Below, piece after piece: positions 32,923-42,835 of a DNA stretch of 64,000 bases. The notes under the pieces were generated by a model that saw only the letters and a list, made by a program, of their open reading frames with translations, had not been told where the DNA came from and made no database searches. Numbering within the stretch: position 1 is the stretch's first letter; each line of letters begins with the position of its first letter. The stretch comes from an uncultured bacterium (GTDB lineage Bacteria; Bacillota_I; Bacilli_A; RFN20; CAG-826), in assembly GCA_949285455.1 (NCBI GenBank), contig CASDXP010000001.1:124001-188000 (forward strand). The letters run 5' to 3'. The position numbers and the translations under genes are program-made.

Positions 32923-33837
32923 ATGCAAAAATTGTTAAATAATGTAATCATAGATTACATAAAAATTAAGAATACCATTTTGAATCCATCAACATTAGCG
33001 AGATATCATAATTTATTTGAAAATCATATAAAAGAGTGGTTTCAAGAAATTAATATTATTGAAATTAATAATTCTATACTTCAAAAATATGTTGATGAAC
33101 AATGGAAAAAAACAACAAGTATAGTTATTAGAGAAGCAATATTACTAATCAAACTCGCATTGAAAAGAGAAGCAAAAATATCAAATTATAATATGCCGTT
33201 AATAGATTTGGATTTCCCTCCACTAATAAAAAAGAAAAATGTAGAGACGCTTACCAGAGTCGAAGAGAAACAAGTAATCAACTACATCTTGAACGGCGAA
33301 AAACAAAAATATTGTGGAATCGTCTTATCTTTGCTCACAGGGATGAGAATCGGTGAAATATGTGCGCTAAAATGGAACGATATTGATTTAAAGAAAAGAC
33401 AGATCAATGTGAATAAGACATTGCAGAGGATATGTCTTAAAGACAAAAAATCAATGATTCAAATTGGCAAAACAAAAACATCTTCTGGTTCAAGGAACAT
33501 ACCTATCAGCAATTTTCTCTATGATTTTTTGATATCTATCAAACCCTCAAACCGTGACACCTACTTTCTTACCAACACAACGACTCCAAAGGAACCTAGA
33601 AACTATAGGAAGATCTATAAAACGCTCCTCAAGAAGCTAAAGATAAAACCCACTACTTTCCATGCCTTACGACACACCTTTGCGACTAGATTGATTGAAA
33701 ACAAAGTTGATATCAAAACAATATCCGAGCTTTTGGGGCACGCTTCCACCAATATTACTATTTCCATCTATGTTCACAGCGAATACAGCACAAAAAGGAA
33801 AGCTGTCAAATCGCTTGATAACCTAATCCTCAAATAA
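32923..33837 (+). CDS. Tyrosine recombinase of the hsdS shufflon
   Basis: The 304-residue recombinase has an N-terminal SAM-like core-binding domain (1-95) and a catalytic domain with Arg in LTGMRIGEICALKW, His-x-x-Arg in HALRHTFATRL, His in LLGHAST and Tyr in ISIYVHSEY. An AAAGGAG site precedes the ATG. Its stop codon lies inside the first copy of the 37-bp inverted repeat that bounds the hsdS cassettes. As in the phase-variable type I systems of streptococci, its likely role is inversion of hsdS segments rather than phage integration; no other phage genes or attachment sites are seen. Confidence 0.92.
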   Translation: MQKLLNNVIIDYIKIKNTILNPSTLARYHNLFENHIKEWFQEINIIEINNSILQKYVDEQWKKTTSIVIREAILLIKLALKREAKISNYNMPLIDLDFPPLIKKKNVETLTRVEEKQVINYILNGEKQKYCGIVLSLLTGMRIGEICALKWNDIDLKKRQINVNKTLQRICLKDKKSMIQIGKTKTSSGSRNIPISNFLYDFLISIKPSNRDTYFLTNTTTPKEPRNYRKIYKTLLKKLKIKPTTFHALRHTFATRLIENKVDIKTISELLGHASTNITISIYVHSEYSTKRKAVKSLDNLILK

Positions 33838-33868
33838 AGACTTTAAGGTACCGAAATTAAGGTTTAAA
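33832..33868 (+). repeat. Inverted repeat IR1, copy a (hsdS 5' end)
   Basis: This 37-bp repeat starts AAATAAAGACTTTAAGG and encodes KDFKVPKLRFK, the conserved start of HsdS. It is identical, in opposite orientation, to 37718-37754. Inversion between them would bring cassette A behind hsdM. Confidence 0.92.
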
Positions 33869-34941
33869 TTCCTACTAATTCGCTATCATGGGATGCTTTA
33901 AACTACATGTGTGGATCGCTTCGCAATTTGCATTATGGGATTATACATTCGAATACAAACGAAATTCTTTCGGCTGTTAATCTTCCGTTTATAAACAATT
34001 GTTCTATTCCTAAAAAATATACAAAGGCAATTCCTGGGGATTTATTTTTGGCAGATACTTCTGAAGATAGGAAGGATTGTGGGAAAGGAATAGAAATAAA
34101 TGGCTTAAGTAATCATGAGGTCGTGGGCGGTCTTCATACAATGCATATTAGAGACAAACAGTCTTTGTTTGTTCCTTTTTACAAAGCATTATTTACACGA
34201 TCAAATGCATTTCATAAATTTGCTTATAAATATTCAGAGGGAATTAAAGTTTTTAGTCTAAAATCTTCACTTTTCAAATATTTAGATTTTTATTACCCCG
34301 AAAAGCTTGAACAGCAAAAAATTGTAGATTTATTCGAGTATATTGATACAAAGATTGCATTAGTGGAGAAAAAAATTGAAGCCCTTAAAAAGTATAGAAA
34401 AGGTATTGTTAATTCGTGGTTTAAAAATATTGGAAAAGCAGTAAAACTCTGTGAGTTGGTAAAACAACAAACCTCACAACTACTCACTCATCAAATCAAG
34501 AATAATATCGGAACTTATCCTGTGTACGACGCAACCGGGAACATATGCAAATCTATTGATTTTTATATGAATGAAAACGACTCAATAGCCATCATAAAGT
34601 ATGGATCTGGATGTGGTAGAACTTTCATTACACGCAATAAACATTGCGTTCTTGGAACTATGTCTGAATTAATTCCATTAAAGCACGATGATTTGACTTA
34701 TATTTTTGCCTTTACTGAAAGCGCTAAATTTAAAAAAATATGCAAGAAATATATTGAAGTAGGTACCACACCTAATCTTTATTATTCCGATTATTCCACC
34801 GAATTAGTTTATTATCCAGATGAGAGGGATAATTTTGTTAAATTGATAGATTCAATTAGTAAAAAGTGTGTTCACTTAGAAACGGAAAAAGAAAAGTTAG
34901 ACCAATTTAAACGACAATTATTGAAAGATATGTTTATATAA
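33868..34941 (+). CDS. Silent hsdS cassette A, two target-recognition domains
   Basis: The frame codes a first recognition domain (SWDALNYMCGSLRN onward), the central helices with EALKKYRKGIV near 34380, a second recognition domain, and the C-terminal helices ending LLKDMFI. It lacks promoter, ribosome binding site and start codon. Relative to the KDFKVPKLRFK frame in repeat IR1a, this frame is shifted: between the repeat and the first Trp there are 20 bases, where a multiple of three is needed. So if inverted to the expression site, the first half would be out of frame unless repaired or recombined. The second half is usable through IR2. Confidence 0.8.
   Translation: MPTNSLSWDALNYMCGSLRNLHYGIIHSNTNEILSAVNLPFINNCSIPKKYTKAIPGDLFLADTSEDRKDCGKGIEINGLSNHEVVGGLHTMHIRDKQSLFVPFYKALFTRSNAFHKFAYKYSEGIKVFSLKSSLFKYLDFYYPEKLEQQKIVDLFEYIDTKIALVEKKIEALKKYRKGIVNSWFKNIGKAVKLCELVKQQTSQLLTHQIKNNIGTYPVYDATGNICKSIDFYMNENDSIAIIKYGSGCGRTFITRNKHCVLGTMSELIPLKHDDLTYIFAFTESAKFKKICKKYIEVGTTPNLYYSDYSTELVYYPDERDNFVKLIDSISKKCVHLETEKEKLDQFKRQLLKDMFI
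34371..34407 (+). repeat. Inverted repeat IR2, copy a (central conserved region)
   Basis: This 37-bp stretch starts AAAAATTGAAGCCCTTAAAA, codes the end of the first HsdS coiled coil (KIEALKKYRKGI), and is identical in inverse orientation to 37154-37190. Inversion here would exchange the second recognition domains of cassettes A and D. Confidence 0.92.
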
Positions 34942-34947
34942 ACATAT
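34928..34947. repeat. Palindrome shared by the ends of cassettes A and B
   Basis: ATATGTTTATATAAACATAT is a perfect 20-bp palindrome that encodes the C-terminal MFI and stop codon of both convergent cassettes, which overlap by 8 bases. A near copy with one changed base lies at the C/D junction (36623-36642). Confidence 0.85.
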
Positions 34948-36055
34948 TAGTGAGAAGGTATCGCTTTGCTGCTTTTAACCATACTAATTCATTTTCTAAA
35001 TTTTGAATTTTTTCATCTAACAACGAAAACAAAATAGCAAGTTTCTTGTTTCCGATAGTCGAAGGAACTCCGAAATTTTGCAAATAAGCTCTATCTATGT
35101 TTTTTAGCCCACTTCCTAGAAAACCGACATATGTAATCCTGTCTTTTTGAGAATCTAAATACTCATATAAGTTTCGTGTTGTCCATTCGTTCTCGCTTTG
35201 AAAGCAAATGCAGTGATCACTATAAGCAAATGGCCCATTTGACAGTCTAAACCCAGCTTCGCCACCGTCATTAGCAATGATATAACAACCATCATTCATA
35301 AATGAATTAATGGTCCCAATTTTCTCTCCAGATAGATAAAAAGGGTATTTCCCATTTTCGACAGAATTTCCAGCGCTAAGCTTACTTTTAGGCATAAATA
35401 AAACCAACGATTTAAGCTTTACATATGCCTCCTTAGGTGTCCTTCTGAAAGCAATTTTTTGAATACCTTTTCTATACTTTTTAAGGGTGGCTATTTTTGC
35501 TTCTAATACTTCAAGTTTATAGTCTGTTAAAGATAAGAATCTTGCTATTTTATTTTGTTCTATTATTGATGGATAAGAAACATATATTGATTTGACAATT
35601 TCTTTATTTAAGTTCGAAACAACTCCGCCAGCAGCCGCTTTGTAATATTGCGACTTACAAATATTACTTTCTAAGTATGCTCTTAAAAACTCTTTATTAA
35701 ATTCATTACTAAATTCTGATATCAATAGCCAACCGTCATGTATAGCTCCGTCAATATTTAGAATATATGGTCTGCCAAAACTCATGGAATTCGATAGAAG
35801 AAGATCACCTTTATGCACAAGCCTAGTATTTTTGACCCCTTCAAAAATTATTTTTTCTTCCGTCTTATTTATATATCCAGATTCGTCTGCGTCACTTATT
35901 TTGATCCAATTAATACCATCATTATTTTTAGAAATATATTTTTCAATTGGTCTTGGCGAACCTCCTCTTTCAATTTTTACTAAATTTCCAAATTTTGAGA
36001 TAGACCAACTTTTTTTGAACTCCTTAAACCTTAACTTCGGTATCTTAAAGTCTTT
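34934..36055 (-). CDS. Silent hsdS cassette B, complete but without start codon
   Basis: From the IR1-like repeat the frame reads KDFKIPKLRFKEFKKSWS and is open for 373 codons to LLTNMFI. It has two recognition domains separated by TLKKYRKGIQ. The first contains GGSPRP and LLLSNSMSFGRPYIL. There is no ATG, GTG or TTG with a ribosome binding site at the start, and TAA lies a few codons upstream, so it is a silent store. It lies in the same orientation as the expressed gene, so it would need two inversions, or a direct-repeat exchange that deletes intervening DNA, to be expressed. Confidence 0.82.
   Translation of the reverse strand, partial: KDFKIPKLRFKEFKKSWSISKFGNLVKIERGGSPRPIEKYISKNNDGINWIKISDADESGYINKTEEKIIFEGVKNTRLVHKGDLLLSNSMSFGRPYILNIDGAIHDGWLLISEFSNEFNKEFLRAYLESNICKSQYYKAAAGGVVSNLNKEIVKSIYVSYPSIIEQNKIARFLSLTDYKLEVLEAKIATLKKYRKGIQKIAFRRTPKEAYVKLKSLVLFMPKSKLSAGNSVENGKYPFYLSGEKIGTINSFMNDGCYIIANDGGEAGFRLSNGPFAYSDHCICFQSENEWTTRNLYEYLDSQKDRITYVGFLGSGLKNIDRAYLQNFGVPSTIGNKKLAILFSLLDEKIQNLENELVWLKAAKRYLLTNMFI
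35462..35487 (-). repeat. Inverted repeat IR2, copy b
   Basis: These 26 bp are identical to the core of IR2 copies a and d; the match stops after CCCTT on the first-domain side. It codes LKKYRKGI of cassette B. Confidence 0.88.
36023..36055 (-). repeat. Inverted repeat IR1, copy b (diverged)
   Basis: This copy matches 30 of the 33 aligned bases of copies a and d. The differences are the AAGATACC, GAAG and final G positions. It opens cassette B and lies only ten bases from IR2 copy c, in opposite orientation. Confidence 0.85.
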
Positions 36056-36065
36056 AGAGAAGGAA

Positions 36066-36086
36066 CCTTAAAAAGTATAGAAAAGG
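36066..36086 (+). repeat. Inverted repeat IR2, copy c
   Basis: A 21-bp core common to all four IR2 copies (CCTTAAAAAGTATAG then AAAAGG) opens the half-cassette C. Confidence 0.88.
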
Positions 36087-36636
36087 ACTGATCCAAATTG
36101 GCCTAAATCAAGTGTATTCCTCAGACTCTTTTGTTCACTTTTCAGATTTATATGTTGATGTTAACGAAAGAAATATTGATGGGTTAAATCAATATACTGT
36201 CGGCAAGGAAGGCTTAAAGCCAATTCTTGAATCAAATTATGATTTGCAGAACCATAAAATCTTTCATCCTAATTGTTTATTGATAGGAATTGGAATTGAG
36301 GAAATTGCTGTCTCAGTAAATGACTCAGGAAGCGTAAGTCCTGTTTATAATGTTTATAGAATAAACAATAAAGACTATTTGAATTACACTCGATTCTTCC
36401 TGAAATCAATTCTTTGGCGAAAGAAAGCTTTTATTACACGTAAATCAACAAGAAGAGAATATGAAATCGATACAAAAGAGCTTTTAATGCTTAATCTTCC
36501 TGCTCCAGTTGATTTACAGTTTGATAAAGTTTGTAATTCCATTGAAGGCTTAGATATTTTAATTCAACAATTTACAAATAAGTTGAAACAATTAAACAGG
36601 GTGAAATCATATCTTTTAAAGAACATGTTCATATAA
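36066..36636 (+). CDS. Silent hsdS half-cassette C, second recognition domain only
   Basis: The frame begins in the IR2 core (LKKYRKGLIQIGL) and codes a single recognition domain followed by the C-terminal helices ending LLKNMFI, 189 codons in all. There is no first domain, no start codon and no ribosome binding site. An internal ATG would give a shorter product, but nothing supports it. It can only be used by recombination at IR2, which would place it as a new second half of the expressed HsdS. Confidence 0.82.
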
Positions 36637-37750
36637 ACATATTTGCCAGTAGATATTGTTTAAAAGATTTCATCAGCTGTGCTTTCTTTTTTAGATTTTC
36701 AATTTGGGATTCAGTCAATTCATTTAACTTATTTAATTCAGCATCTGATAGATTAGGAAGTATTACTTTAAGATTAAAAAACCACTTTTGATCTAAATGT
36801 TTTAGTCCAGTTCCTTGGAAGCCTGCTATATTGATTCTTTTCTCATTTGCCACCAAGAAATAATATAAACCTATAGCGTGTGCTATTGGTCTTAAAATAA
36901 GGCAATCAGACATCGCAGAAAATTTGCCATCATAATATTTAACAGAAGCTGTTCCACCTGTATTTATAATTAAATATTGGCCGTTGAAAATATATTCGTC
37001 GCAATATTTCTCAATACCTTCATCATTATTTATGAAAAACGGATATGAACCGATATCTTTTCCATACGAAGACGCTAAACCCGTCTTCTTTTCTACTCTA
37101 ACTAAATCTCTAATTTTTGATGCTAGAGAGCCTTTTTTAATTAGGTGATGGATAATACCTTTTCTATACTTTTTAAGGGCTTCAATTTTTCCGTCCATAT
37201 ATTTGATTTTTGAATTAATCAAATTAAGAAAATGTGCTATTTTCGTTTGTTCTTCTTCGGAAGGAGAAATCATTATATTTATATTGAAAAAGTCATCTGG
37301 AGATAAATTTAATAGGCCGTGATTTCTTGCACCTTCTCCAGAGATTAGTTTAACCTGCTTATTCCATTTGCCTGAGTCAAAGTATTTAACCAAATAGTCT
37401 GAATCGATATTGCTTATTGAAAAACAGATATAAAGTGATGAAAGAGCACCTTGTTCGAAGTAATCAAGTCGTTTTATTGCGCCATATGGATATCCGTTCG
37501 AATACGATTTATTATAAGCGAATTCGCCGTTTTGAATGATGTAATAATTGGAAAGATTTAGACTAGCAATTTGCTTATCAAAATAATCATATTGGTTTAT
37601 AAGACCTTTTTGAGCAGAAATTGTTAATGGCACTAATGGAAGGTTGTTTTTATTTTTCCTTTTGATTCGAACAGAAATATCCTTAAGTTTGATATTTTCC
37701 CATTCTTTAACGAATTTTTTAAACCTTAATTTCGGTACCTTAAAGTCTTT
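36629..37750 (-). CDS. hsdS: HsdS at the expression site (cassette D), no canonical start codon
   Basis: HsdS sets the DNA target of the M2S and R2M2S complexes. The frame reads KDFKVPKLRFKKFVKEW, a first recognition domain, KIEALKKYRKGII in the central repeat, a second domain and LLANMFI, about 373 residues. A good GAAAGGAGG site follows hsdM, but the next in-frame codons are GGG CAA AAT AAA GAC with no ATG, GTG or TTG. The first such codon is a GTG at 37633, which would remove about 40 residues. The frame is the same as hsdM, separated only by UAG (37766-37768). One lost G (AAAATGAAAG to AAAATAAAG) would explain both facts. Confidence 0.85.
   Translation of the reverse strand, partial: KDFKVPKLRFKKFVKEWENIKLKDISVRIKRKNKNNLPLVPLTISAQKGLINQYDYFDKQIASLNLSNYYIIQNGEFAYNKSYSNGYPYGAIKRLDYFEQGALSSLYICFSISNIDSDYLVKYFDSGKWNKQVKLISGEGARNHGLLNLSPDDFFNINIMISPSEEEQTKIAHFLNLINSKIKYMDGKIEALKKYRKGIIHHLIKKGSLASKIRDLVRVEKKTGLASSYGKDIGSYPFFINNDEGIEKYCDEYIFNGQYLIINTGGTASVKYYDGKFSAMSDCLILRPIAHAIGLYYFLVANEKRINIAGFQGTGLKHLDQKWFFNLKVILPNLSDAELNKLNELTESQIENLKKKAQLMKSFKQYLLANMFI
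37154..37190 (-). repeat. Inverted repeat IR2, copy d
   Basis: This is the exact 37-bp inverse partner of 34371-34407, inside the expressed hsdS. Confidence 0.92.
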
Positions 37751-37754
37751 ATTT
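37718..37754 (-). repeat. Inverted repeat IR1, copy d
   Basis: This is the exact 37-bp inverse partner of 33832-33868, lying between the hsdS ribosome binding site and the first recognition domain. Confidence 0.92.
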
Positions 37755-37765
37755 TGCCCTCCTTT

Positions 37766-39331
37766 CTAGAACTTTGGAAGTCCTAATTCTTCAAGATATT
37801 TATTGAGTTCTTCTGTTACTTTTTTATCTTCTTCGTCGAGTCTCTTATACTCGGCCATAACGGCGTTGATGTCGATTTCCTCTTCTTCTTCGAAAGTATC
37901 GACATATCTAGGAATATTGAGATTGAATTCGTTTTCTTTTAGTTCCTCAATAGTTGCTAAATGAGCAAATTTCTCAATTTCTTTCTTAGATGAATAAGCA
38001 TCCATTATTCTTTGAATGTCTTCATCCCTTAAAAGGTTTTGATTCTTACCTTTTTCAAAGTATTTAGATGCATCGATGAAATAAACATTGCGGTCAGTCT
38101 TGTTCTTTTTGAATACGCAGATGCAGGCAGCTATTGTCGTTCCATAAAACAAGTTTTCAGGTAGACCGATGACAGTATCTAGATAGTTCCTAGTCTCGAC
38201 GAGATATTGTCGAATAACTTTCTCGGCATTGCCTCTAAATAAAGGACCGTGAGGCAAAACGACAGCCATGCAACCAGTCGCACTTAAGCTATGAATCATA
38301 TGCTCCACGAAAGCATAATCCGCGTATGACTTAGGTGCAAGTTTGCCAGCGCCGGAAAAGCGTTCGTCCTGTTCCATGGTTGAATTAGGATCCCAATTTG
38401 CAGAGAAGGGAGGATTTGCGACAACAATATCCATCTTTCCATAGGTCTTTTGGTCTTCACTTGGGTTTTTAAGAGTGTCACCTTGGTGAATAGTAAATTT
38501 ATTGAAATTGACATGATGTACGAGCATGTTCATTCTCGCTAAGTTACAGGTTGTAGTATTTAATTCTTGGCCATAGATATGGATATATTTTCCTGCTTTT
38601 TCACTTAATCTGTCTATGACTTGAATGAGTAAGGAACCGGAACCACAAGCAGGGTCACTTATGTATTTGACATCCTTTAAATCTTTCGTAACAAGTAAAC
38701 TTAATAACTTTGAAACTTGTTGAGGTGTATAAAATTCCCCTGCTTTCTTACCTGCGGATGCGGCAAATTGGCCAATTAGATATTCATAAGCATCACCTAG
38801 CAAATCAATTCTGCTATCCATAAAATTAAAATTAATTTCATCTATTGCGCTTATTAATTTGCTAATCAATTCACCCTTTTCTTTATAAGTTGAACCTAAT
38901 TTATCAGAGGTAAGATTGACATCATTAAACAATTTTGAAAGTTGATCTTCACTTTCTTGTCCTTTTGTAGAATCAGAATAATTTTTAAATGCGGTTGCTA
39001 AATCTTCAAGTTCAAAAGAACCTACACTAATCTTCTTAACTAAACTTTTAAAAAGATAATTTGGTTCGATGAAATAGCCAAGACCTAGATTAATAATAGC
39101 CATTTCTCTACATTGATTTGGCGAGGCTTCATAAAATTCTTCGACAGTCGAATGAAGTTTACTTTTGAATTCGCTTTCTTCGTGCTCGCTGATATAGCGA
39201 TAGAAGATCAAACCCAAGATATAATCTTTGAATTCGTTTGCATCCATGTTCCCACGAAGAGAATTAGCCATTTTCCACAGCTTAGTGTGAAGCTCTCTTT
39301 TTTGATTAAGTTCAGTTTCTACAGTATTCAT
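37766..39331 (-). CDS. hsdM: Type I DNA methyltransferase subunit HsdM
   Basis: The 521-residue subunit has the HsdM N-terminal helical domain, the AdoMet motif DPACGSGSLL near residue 226 and the catalytic NPPF (VVANPPFSANWD) near 308, as in N6-adenine methyltransferases of the type IC (EcoR124I-like) group. An AAGGAG site precedes its ATG. It stops with TAG, after which the same frame continues into hsdS. It lies 11 bases after the half-sized S-like gene. Confidence 0.96.
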   Translation of the reverse strand: MNTVETELNQKRELHTKLWKMANSLRGNMDANEFKDYILGLIFYRYISEHEESEFKSKLHSTVEEFYEASPNQCREMAIINLGLGYFIEPNYLFKSLVKKISVGSFELEDLATAFKNYSDSTKGQESEDQLSKLFNDVNLTSDKLGSTYKEKGELISKLISAIDEINFNFMDSRIDLLGDAYEYLIGQFAASAGKKAGEFYTPQQVSKLLSLLVTKDLKDVKYISDPACGSGSLLIQVIDRLSEKAGKYIHIYGQELNTTTCNLARMNMLVHHVNFNKFTIHQGDTLKNPSEDQKTYGKMDIVVANPPFSANWDPNSTMEQDERFSGAGKLAPKSYADYAFVEHMIHSLSATGCMAVVLPHGPLFRGNAEKVIRQYLVETRNYLDTVIGLPENLFYGTTIAACICVFKKNKTDRNVYFIDASKYFEKGKNQNLLRDEDIQRIMDAYSSKKEIEKFAHLATIEELKENEFNLNIPRYVDTFEEEEEIDINAVMAEYKRLDEEDKKVTEELNKYLEELGLPKF

Positions 39332-39342
39332 ATTTTTCTCCT

Positions 39343-39936
39343 TTATTCTTTATTTAATTGTGATTTTAGAAAATAGTTTATCATCCTATGTGTAACATCA
39401 GCTTTAAGTTTTTTAATTCTTATGAGCCTTCGAGATAAATCGTAAGCTTTTCCTATTTTTATTTGTTTGTCGATATCACAGCACTCTATCTCTATATCCT
39501 TAAATGTGCTTATCGGAATTACCACTACTCGACTCGTCTTTTGATATAGTGGAAGTAATTGTTTTTTTACATCGCTATTTTCGTTAATAAGCCAGCACAG
39601 ATAGTAAGGGTCAAGTTTTTTCTTGTTTTCTATTCTTATAACAGCAAAGTTAGATAGCACGAGTTTACCTGCTCTATTTTTTTCGATAACCATTGCATTA
39701 CCAGAACTTATGCCAATCAAGACATCGCCTATTTGACTATATAGACAATTCTTATATCTACTGCGATTTACCATTACACAATTTTCTAAAGGCAAATAGT
39801 CGGATTGATTGCAATAATAACTTAGTTCTTGCATCGTCAAAGCTTCATATGGAATTCCACTACTGTCTTCTGATTTTATTCTAGTGAGAATCGAACCCTG
39901 GGATATCTCTGCTAATTGATTAATTTTATATTTCAT
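39343..39936 (-). CDS. Half-sized HsdS-like protein between hsdR and hsdM
   Basis: The protein of about 197 residues begins KYKINQLAEISQGSILTRI, like a single HsdS recognition domain, has SGNAMVIEK and LSNFAVIRI strands, and ends in a coiled-coil-like helix (SRRLIRIKKLKADVTHRMI). It carries one recognition domain where HsdS has two. It has its own AAGGAG site and lacks the IR1 and IR2 repeats, so it is not part of the shufflon. It could dimerise as a fixed half-S, or modulate the complex; neither is proven. Confidence 0.75.
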   Translation of the reverse strand: MKYKINQLAEISQGSILTRIKSEDSSGIPYEALTMQELSYYCNQSDYLPLENCVMVNRSRYKNCLYSQIGDVLIGISSGNAMVIEKNRAGKLVLSNFAVIRIENKKKLDPYYLCWLINENSDVKKQLLPLYQKTSRVVVIPISTFKDIEIECCDIDKQIKIGKAYDLSRRLIRIKKLKADVTHRMINYFLKSQLNKE

Positions 39937-39996
39937 CATGTCTCCTTATTGAAACTTACACAAATATCTTAAATCTTTCTATTTCGAGTGTCAATA

Positions 39997-40014
39997 GATA
40001 TTTACGCAAATATC
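39997..40014. repeat. Short inverted repeat between hsdR and the half-S gene
   Basis: GATATTTACGCAAATATC has 7-bp arms and overlaps the hsdR stop. It could be an operator or an RNA hairpin that adjusts expression within the operon. Confidence 0.4.
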
Positions 40015-42820
40015 AATATAGTGTTATGTCATTAAAGCGATCAAAATATCCTTTTATTGAAGCGGGTAGAGCGTTTGAAAGTTCGATACGCTCCTTTATC
40101 GAAATGTCTTTATTTTTGCTGAGGAGATTTGTAACTTCTCTATTAAGTTCGATATCATCTTGATAAAATGCATAGTCTTCAATAATATTACGCAAGTCGT
40201 CTCTATTTACATTGTATTCACTACTTATACTATCAAGAGCATCATTTTTTTCCTTATTGATAAATTGTTCATATTCAATAATAGGATCCTTATCGTATAG
40301 GCCTTCAATATTTTGATCCATGAATTCAGTTACGAATTTCAATAATAGTTCTTTTTTAGACTTTTCGTTAATAGAGGCAACAAGACGTATAATTTTATTT
40401 CTTGTTTTCTTTTTGTCGGTGTCATCGCCTTTTTGATATCTTCTCAATAATTCAACAAGATAATCAAAATCAACTTTAACTCTTCCTAGGAGCTCAATTT
40501 CGAAATCAATATCATTCAGAATTGATTCCCTGTTTACTAAAGGTTTCACTCTGTTGTAAATGTCTTTGTAAAGGCCTTGCAATTCATAGTATGTCTTCAT
40601 ACTAACTTCAGTGTTTTCGATATCAAAGTCAACATAATTAATAGCTTGATTGTACGTATGCATTAATTTTCTAAATAAATTAACAAACTCGGCTTGGTCC
40701 TTTTCAGAACGCGAATCTGCTAACTTTCTTTTATCTTTGCACTCTTTATAGTATTCATTAAGTCTTTTGATTAAGTCATCAAGTGGTAATAATGTAACAT
40801 CATTATAAACATCGACGTCGTTATTAAAATGTGCTAGGGCTTCATCCATCGTCGCTCTAGATGTTTGATAGCAAACAATATTACCGCAAATTTTAGTTTC
40901 ATCATAAGTTCTTATGGTTCTTGATATCGCTTGAATAAGACCATGCATACGCATGGATTTATCAAGAAAAAGTGTATTACAACGCACAAAATCCATCCCG
41001 GTGAGACATTTATCAACAACCAAAAGAATATCAAGATTCTTATTTCTAAAATTGTTGATTACATCTCTTTCATATTGAGAGTAAGTTGAAATAGAAAAAT
41101 TAGAATTGTTCTCTGGCCTTTTATTATATTCCTCGATGATTTTTTCCAATTCATCCTTAGCTATTGTTGGATCATCACCTTCTTTACAATCTTCATTTGG
41201 ATCATATGAATAAATAGCAGCTATTTTTAAATTTAATTTGTTGTTAAGCAATGCTTTGTAGTATTTAATTAAAAGTTTGATGGATTGACAAGCAAAAATG
41301 GCATTGTATTTTTTATTTGCTGTCTTGCTTTCATAGTGCTCAAGTAAATCATTAACGACGATATTAATTCTTTTATCATTTAAGAGGGCTTCCTCATAGT
41401 CAATGCCCTGCACTCGCTTATCTAACTGAGTCATTACACCATCTTTAAGCTTTATGGTATTAATATAGTCAATACAAAGTGGAAGAACGTTTCGGTCTCC
41501 AATTGCTTCCTTCAAAGTGTACGTGTGCACCGGCTTACCAAAATACAAAGAAGTAAGTTTAGCATTTTCTGTGACTTCATCTTCTTCGGTAAAAATAGGT
41601 GTTCCTGTAAAACCATAATATAAAGCGTTTGTGAAGTATCGCTCAATTACCTTTCTCATCTCACCTGCCTGTGAACGATGACATTCATCAAACATAAAGA
41701 TAATTTTTTTATTTTTGAAAGGAAGTAATCTATCAACATTTCTTCCTTTTAGAGCATTAGACATCTTGTTGATGGTAGAAATAATTAACTTTTTGTTAGA
41801 TTCAATATCCTTTATCAATGAATCGGTTTTTTTGACATTCGTAAATTCTTCCAACGTGGAAGACATATAAGAGTTAAAATCGTCAACTGTCTTATCATCT
41901 AAATCTTTTCTATCGACAAGGAAAAAAACTTTGTCCACTTCTTTCCTCAACGACATTGCAAAGGCGAATTTAAATGAGGTTAGTGTTTTACCTGAACCAG
42001 TAGAATGAAAGCAATAGCCGTTAGCGTTGCTCTTGAGGCATCTATTTTTCAAAGCCTCAAAAGCATAGATTTGGTATGGCCTCATGACGAATAGTTTCTT
42101 TTGTGAAGCACTATCAATCATATAATTGAAAACTAATTTAAATAAAAACGGGCAAAACAAAAACTCCTCTTCAAAATCATAGAGAAGATTGACGTTTTCG
42201 TTTTCCATGTCGGTCCACACGAAACAATTGCTCTTTTTTATATCTGTATCATTATTAGCGAAATAGCGCGTGTGTTGTTCATTAGAAATGACGAAAATTT
42301 GTATAAAATTAAATAATCCTTTGTAATTTCCGTCGCGTTTATATCGGAGAACTTGGTTAAAAGCTTGATTGATTTCAACGCCGGGCTTTTTAAGTTCTAT
42401 TTGAACAAAAGGAAGACCGTTTAATAAGAGGGTAACATCAAAGCGTCCAGTGTATTTACCGCTAACAGTGATTTGATGTGCAACTTCGAAATGATTCTTC
42501 TCTATATCGTCGAGATCTACGAGTTTAAGATAAACGGGGTATCCATCTCTTTTAATTATATCTATTTTTCCAGTTCTTAAAATTTGAGAAGCCTCAAAAA
42601 CACTCTTATTTTCTAAATAGATACAAATATTCTTAAACTCATCGTTAGTTAATTCTTCTCCGTTTAACTTTTCCTTGTTCAATTCATTAAGATGTTTTCT
42701 AAAATTACTTTTTAATTCTTCGTAGCTAGAAATTGCGCTGTAGCGGTACCAATTGCGTTGAATTATTTCTATAAATTTTTTCTCAACATCATATTCAGTT
42801 GTATAATCGCTGTTATGCAT
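40013..42820 (-). CDS. hsdR: Type I restriction endonuclease subunit HsdR
   Basis: The 935-residue motor-nuclease has an N-terminal PD-(D/E)XK domain with GRFDVTLLLNGLPFVQIELKK, a Walker A FHSTGSGKTLTSF near residue 275, a DECH box (MFDECHRSQ) and later helicase motifs such as TGMDFVRCN and QAISRTIRTY. It cuts DNA unmodified at sites set by HsdS after ATP-driven translocation. The ATG five codons into the open frame is used because it lies 8 bases after GGAGG. It is the first gene of the leftward hsdR, half-S, hsdM, hsdS operon. Confidence 0.96.
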   Translation of the reverse strand: MHNSDYTTEYDVEKKFIEIIQRNWYRYSAISSYEELKSNFRKHLNELNKEKLNGEELTNDEFKNICIYLENKSVFEASQILRTGKIDIIKRDGYPVYLKLVDLDDIEKNHFEVAHQITVSGKYTGRFDVTLLLNGLPFVQIELKKPGVEINQAFNQVLRYKRDGNYKGLFNFIQIFVISNEQHTRYFANNDTDIKKSNCFVWTDMENENVNLLYDFEEEFLFCPFLFKLVFNYMIDSASQKKLFVMRPYQIYAFEALKNRCLKSNANGYCFHSTGSGKTLTSFKFAFAMSLRKEVDKVFFLVDRKDLDDKTVDDFNSYMSSTLEEFTNVKKTDSLIKDIESNKKLIISTINKMSNALKGRNVDRLLPFKNKKIIFMFDECHRSQAGEMRKVIERYFTNALYYGFTGTPIFTEEDEVTENAKLTSLYFGKPVHTYTLKEAIGDRNVLPLCIDYINTIKLKDGVMTQLDKRVQGIDYEEALLNDKRINIVVNDLLEHYESKTANKKYNAIFACQSIKLLIKYYKALLNNKLNLKIAAIYSYDPNEDCKEGDDPTIAKDELEKIIEEYNKRPENNSNFSISTYSQYERDVINNFRNKNLDILLVVDKCLTGMDFVRCNTLFLDKSMRMHGLIQAISRTIRTYDETKICGNIVCYQTSRATMDEALAHFNNDVDVYNDVTLLPLDDLIKRLNEYYKECKDKRKLADSRSEKDQAEFVNLFRKLMHTYNQAINYVDFDIENTEVSMKTYYELQGLYKDIYNRVKPLVNRESILNDIDFEIELLGRVKVDFDYLVELLRRYQKGDDTDKKKTRNKIIRLVASINEKSKKELLLKFVTEFMDQNIEGLYDKDPIIEYEQFINKEKNDALDSISSEYNVNRDDLRNIIEDYAFYQDDIELNREVTNLLSKNKDISIKERIELSNALPASIKGYFDRFNDITLY

Positions 42821-42835
42821 ATTTGATTCCTCCAA

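Follow-up and report, generated by a model that had tools for sequence, protein, structure and literature searches.

Phase-variable inverting type I restriction-modification (RM) loci carry silent hsdS' copies that have no start codon (PMC7394358). In the SpnIII/ivr locus of Streptococcus pneumoniae and in the loci of Streptococcus suis and Enterococcus faecalis (PMC7394358, PMC4948785), hsdR and hsdM occur with one hsdS gene located behind hsdM, with inverted and startless silent cassettes, with a tyrosine recombinase, and with repeats both before the first target recognition domain (TRD1) and between TRD1 and TRD2. The locus described here shares all of these features. It differs from the SpnIII/ivr type in that the hsdS frame in the expressed position is startless as well, and in that a half-hsdS gene is present between hsdR and hsdM. 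In the SpnIV/tvr locus of S. pneumoniae, too, hsdS fragments are shuffled and a tyrosine recombinase is present, but shuffling proceeds by excision and reintegration, and the locus has the regulators TvrA and TvrT (PMC6265443). A conserved half-hsdS upstream of hsdM is a feature of our locus, and the sections of that source used here describe none for SpnIV/tvr.

The window, a stretch of 64,000 nucleotides from an uncultured gut bacterium, holds a complete type I RM locus together with three silent hsdS cassettes and a tyrosine recombinase gene (Table 1). As in other inverting type I RM loci, hsdR and hsdM adjoin hsdS, several hsdS cassettes lie in opposite orientations, inverted repeats precede TRD1 and separate the TRDs, and the recombinase gene is located at the locus. 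The start codon that the hsdM-proximal hsdS of this class should have is missing. The locus is thus read as a damaged member of the inverting class, which has the layout but not the working start.

Table 1. Features of the restriction-modification locus. Positions refer to the window; L111, L112 and L113 are the three closest relatives.
Feature	Position	Strand	Evidence or remark
hsdR, type I restriction subunit, intact	40013..42835	-	Pfam HSDR_N, SWI2_SNF2, EcoR124_C
half-hsdS, 198 aa, single target recognition domain, specificity-like, between hsdR and hsdM	39343..39939	-	profile match to S subunits, PADLOC
hsdM, 521 aa, stop TAG at 37768-37766	37766..39331	-	Pfam N6_Mtase, HsdM_N
hsdS frame in expressed position, without start codon, about 374-378 codons	36629..37765	-	
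Shine-Dalgarno sequence AAAGGAGGG, kept before the startless hsdS	37757..37765	-	GGAGGG conserved in L111-L113
Site of the 36-bp absence relative to L111 and L112 (exact position ambiguous by a few A)	37753..37756	-	
IR1, expressed-side copy of the N-terminal inverted repeat AAATAAAGACTTTAAGG	37718..37754	-	
IR2, 21 bp, central repeat between the two target recognition domains	37158..37178	-	
Other IR2 copies (four copies in total)	34383-34403; 35466-35486; 36066-36086	+; -; +	
Silent half cassette C, second recognition domain only	36066..36636	+	
Silent cassette B, open frame from IR1 on, without start codon	34934..36056	-	
Silent cassette A, from IR1a on, frameshifted	33832..34941	+	
Tyrosine recombinase, TAA stop inside IR1a	32923..33837	+	Pfam Phage_integrase

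Read on the minus strand from 37768, the junction between hsdM and hsdS is TAG AAA GGA GGG CAA AAT AAA GAC TTT AAG GTA CCG. The hsdS frame continues that of hsdM and stays open beyond the hsdM TAG as far as 36632, which agrees with the original prediction that hsdS is in frame with hsdM across one UAG. The sequence is also as described there with respect to the start: a strong Shine-Dalgarno sequence follows the hsdM TAG, yet no ATG, GTG or TTG is found in the hsdS frame before codon 45. The first such codon, a GTG at 37633 and the 45th codon after the TAG, is not directly preceded by a Shine-Dalgarno sequence; an in-frame ATG is not reached until codon 165. The frame had been called the expressed hsdS, which is correct for its position next to hsdM; the word is used here in this positional meaning only and makes no statement on expression.

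The same operon is present in the three closest relatives, the uncultured Bacilli L111 (a contig of genome G003; HsdM 99% identical), L112 (97%) and L113 (a contig of genome G148; 92%). These loci resemble the window in the order hsdR, half-hsdS, hsdM, hsdS, in hsdM, which is 92-99% identical, and in having the same IR1; the recombinase is common to the window, G003 (89%) and G148 (69%). In all three relatives the ribosome binding site is followed by an ATG, a short leader and then the AAT AAA GAC TTT AAG of IR1. The leader reads MEENNQNKEPLN in L111 and L112 and MEENKNNNEPLN in L113, with its final N being the AAT. Whereas the relatives thus keep an ATG and some 12 leader codons before IR1 and end hsdM with TAA, the window has neither of these, and its hsdM ends with TAG. 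In the alignment of the window with L111 and L112 exactly 36 bp are absent between GGAGGGCA and AAATAAAGAC, and both flanks are conserved. The absent segment starts directly behind GGAGGGCA, reaches the left end of IR1 and corresponds to the ATG and the 12-codon leader. When L111, L112 and L113 are aligned with the window, the window alone is without this segment, and no copy of the leader turned up in the rest of the window's genome. A start codon was identified in all relatives that have a co-directional hsdS just after hsdM (42/42; relatives fetched by HsdM and scored by a simple motif test, with one row, L189, that may not be hsdS), and the window is without one. An ATG in relatives at this position had been named in advance as the finding that would speak against the original prediction. 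In substance this is what they carry, with the ATG located 12 codons further upstream.

The comparison also changes the nature of the lesion. A G lost from AAAATGAAAG had been proposed, and this candidate was rejected: AAT AAA GAC is ancestral and lies within the coding sequence of the relatives, and it is the 36 bp upstream that are absent instead. Judged from the aligned sequences, AAATAAAG is ancestral inverted repeat and coding sequence, neither a damaged start nor an ATGAAAG minus its G. The observation that the same sequence recurs at IR1a is correct, but it does not represent a second lost G. Both copies are the inverted repeat itself, and IR1 has the same sequence at the integrase stop of G003; the apparent loss was seen twice because both sites are the same repeat. 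What is retained of the earlier proposal, and supported, is that a lesion at the start probably switches the gene off, the actual lesion being a 36-bp loss relative to the relatives.

Further copies of the AAATAAAGACTTTAAGG repeat are located at 33832-33868 on the plus strand, at the integrase stop, and at 36056-36027 on the minus strand, in a silent cassette and from TAAAG on; shuffled sequence gave 0 such matches, and a repeat scan of IMG/VR gave no match. IR1 starts the S frames at 33832 (plus strand), 36056 (minus strand) and 37754 (minus strand), and the silent cassettes have no start codon of their own.

The locus is a known kind of shuffling system with its start segment lost, and we consider it likely that this reflects a real and recent 36-bp deletion of a fixed start segment, which leaves the shuffled hsdS without a usable start. 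Since the cassettes begin at IR1 and bring no start with them, the fixed segment between hsdM and IR1 would provide the sole translation start of the shuffled hsdS. This segment would have lost 36 bp including the ATG and 12 leader codons, perhaps by slippage at a short A-rich homology or by faulty action of the recombinase at the IR1 edge. The Shine-Dalgarno sequence would now abut IR1, with the hsdS frame left without a usable start. Full-length HsdS is probably not made, and no inversion state is predicted to restore hsdS translation, because inversion does not move the start segment and the cassettes are startless. The loss is most likely a recent deletion, and the lesion looks like an ordinary small deletion and does not point to an unusual mode of translation. 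Because all cassettes of a shuffling hsdS locus rely on one short fixed segment for their start, a single small deletion would silence all specificities together.

Comparison with the relatives removes the claim of unusual translation, for which two routes had been suggested. The retained Shine-Dalgarno sequence and the fully open hsdS frame of about 374-378 codons could be taken to indicate initiation at a near-cognate codon close to the Shine-Dalgarno sequence, or internally at GTG 37633 to give an N-terminally cut HsdS. However, the codons that the Shine-Dalgarno sequence could serve in this frame are CAA, AAT, AAA, GAC, TTT and AAG; none of the near-cognates CTG, ATA, ATT and ATC is among them, and the first in-frame ATC lies 25 codons after the TAG. 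Use of GTG 37633, with no Shine-Dalgarno sequence, would moreover cut off the beginning of the first recognition domain, and ordinary starts are present in all relatives compared. Such initiation is therefore very improbable. Readthrough of the UAG into an HsdM-HsdS fusion draws on the shared frame of hsdM and hsdS, which the TAG alone interrupts, but L111 and L112 are likewise in frame with a TAA and an ATG, and in L113 hsdS is out of frame. The shared frame is thus incidental and older than the loss, since it exists behind a normal ATG in L111 and L112 and is absent from L113. A tRNA with a CUA anticodon was not found among the Rfam tRNA matches and ARAGORN calls, release factor 1 (RF1) is present, and TAG serves as an ordinary stop that ends 7 of the 52 long frames in the window. 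In such a fusion an untranslated ribosome binding site would have to serve as the linker. With neither a conserved stop and frame nor a suppressor tRNA detected, we regard readthrough as extremely improbable. Frames of 860-925 aa in the family, considered as candidate natural HsdM-HsdS fusions that might support readthrough, resembled on inspection by eye HsdM with a long C-terminal extension and no added HsdS.

How long ago the segment was lost can be approached through the neighbouring genes. With L112 as outgroup, the window branch shows 62 synonymous and 2 nonsynonymous changes in hsdM, 91 and 10 in hsdR, and 13 and 1 in half-hsdS. hsdM is still under strong constraint; if the loss of HsdS freed hsdM, it would have been unconstrained for at most about 3% of the window branch, a rough bound that ignores multiple hits. 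The constraint implies that the loss is very recent, that half-S has kept the methylase useful, or that the assembly is in error. In the case of an error the genome would carry the ATG and leader, and the 36 bp would have dropped out during the joining of contig pieces at the boundary of a repeat that is present in several invertible arrangements. Such an artefact would account for the lack of relaxation of hsdM, hsdR and half-hsdS on the window branch. The join coincides exactly with the left edge of IR1, and repeat edges are also places where assemblies go wrong; the contigs of close relatives end inside the locus, which is thus hard to assemble. The breakpoint itself fits a recombination accident as well as a faulty join. 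The shared repeat is, however, only about 37 bp long and thus shorter than a read, which favours a real deletion. The missing bases would also be unique sequence adjoining hsdM, which a graph assembler normally keeps, and the window is contiguous through all repeats. We therefore regard an assembly artefact as rather unlikely.

The half-hsdS gene is kept directly upstream of hsdM in several Bacilli, namely L111-L114, L126 and L128, with weaker matches in L182, L187 and L169. A profile of seven half-S members matches the solved S subunits 1yf2 (E 2.3e-6), 5ybb and 3okg; three of the seven match Pfam Methylase_S at E up to 1 (best 2.3e-7), and the window half-S protein matches PADLOC Specificity_I models. 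By analogy, half-S may give a constant second specificity. A functional half-S is plausible because, for SpnIV, an HsdS with one working recognition domain was inferred to function as a dimer that acts on a near-palindromic site (PMC6265443). The 36-bp loss might then be real and fixed, with the shuffling specificity locked off and hsdR and hsdM kept useful via half-S, probably as a dimer. We consider this combination unlikely; if true, the system would have a constant and a switchable specificity, with the start segment as the master switch. The conserved half-specificity gene in any case raises the testable question of a constant second specificity.

The cassettes do exchange, since the TRD1 in the window's expressed position sits in a silent cassette in G003 (a between-species comparison). 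The G003 (L111) and G148 (L113) contigs end in hsdS cassettes or at the integrase-side repeat, whereas the window runs through this region (33800-37760). This contrast may mean that mixed inversion states are absent, or that another sequencing method was used. In both the window and G003, the TAA stop of the recombinase (33832-33837 in the window) lies within the inverted repeat IR1a. A one-base shift of the frame follows IR1 closely in cassette A, at about 33868-33873 within 33865-33875 of the plus strand, and when inverted into place the cassette would give no full HsdS even with a start.
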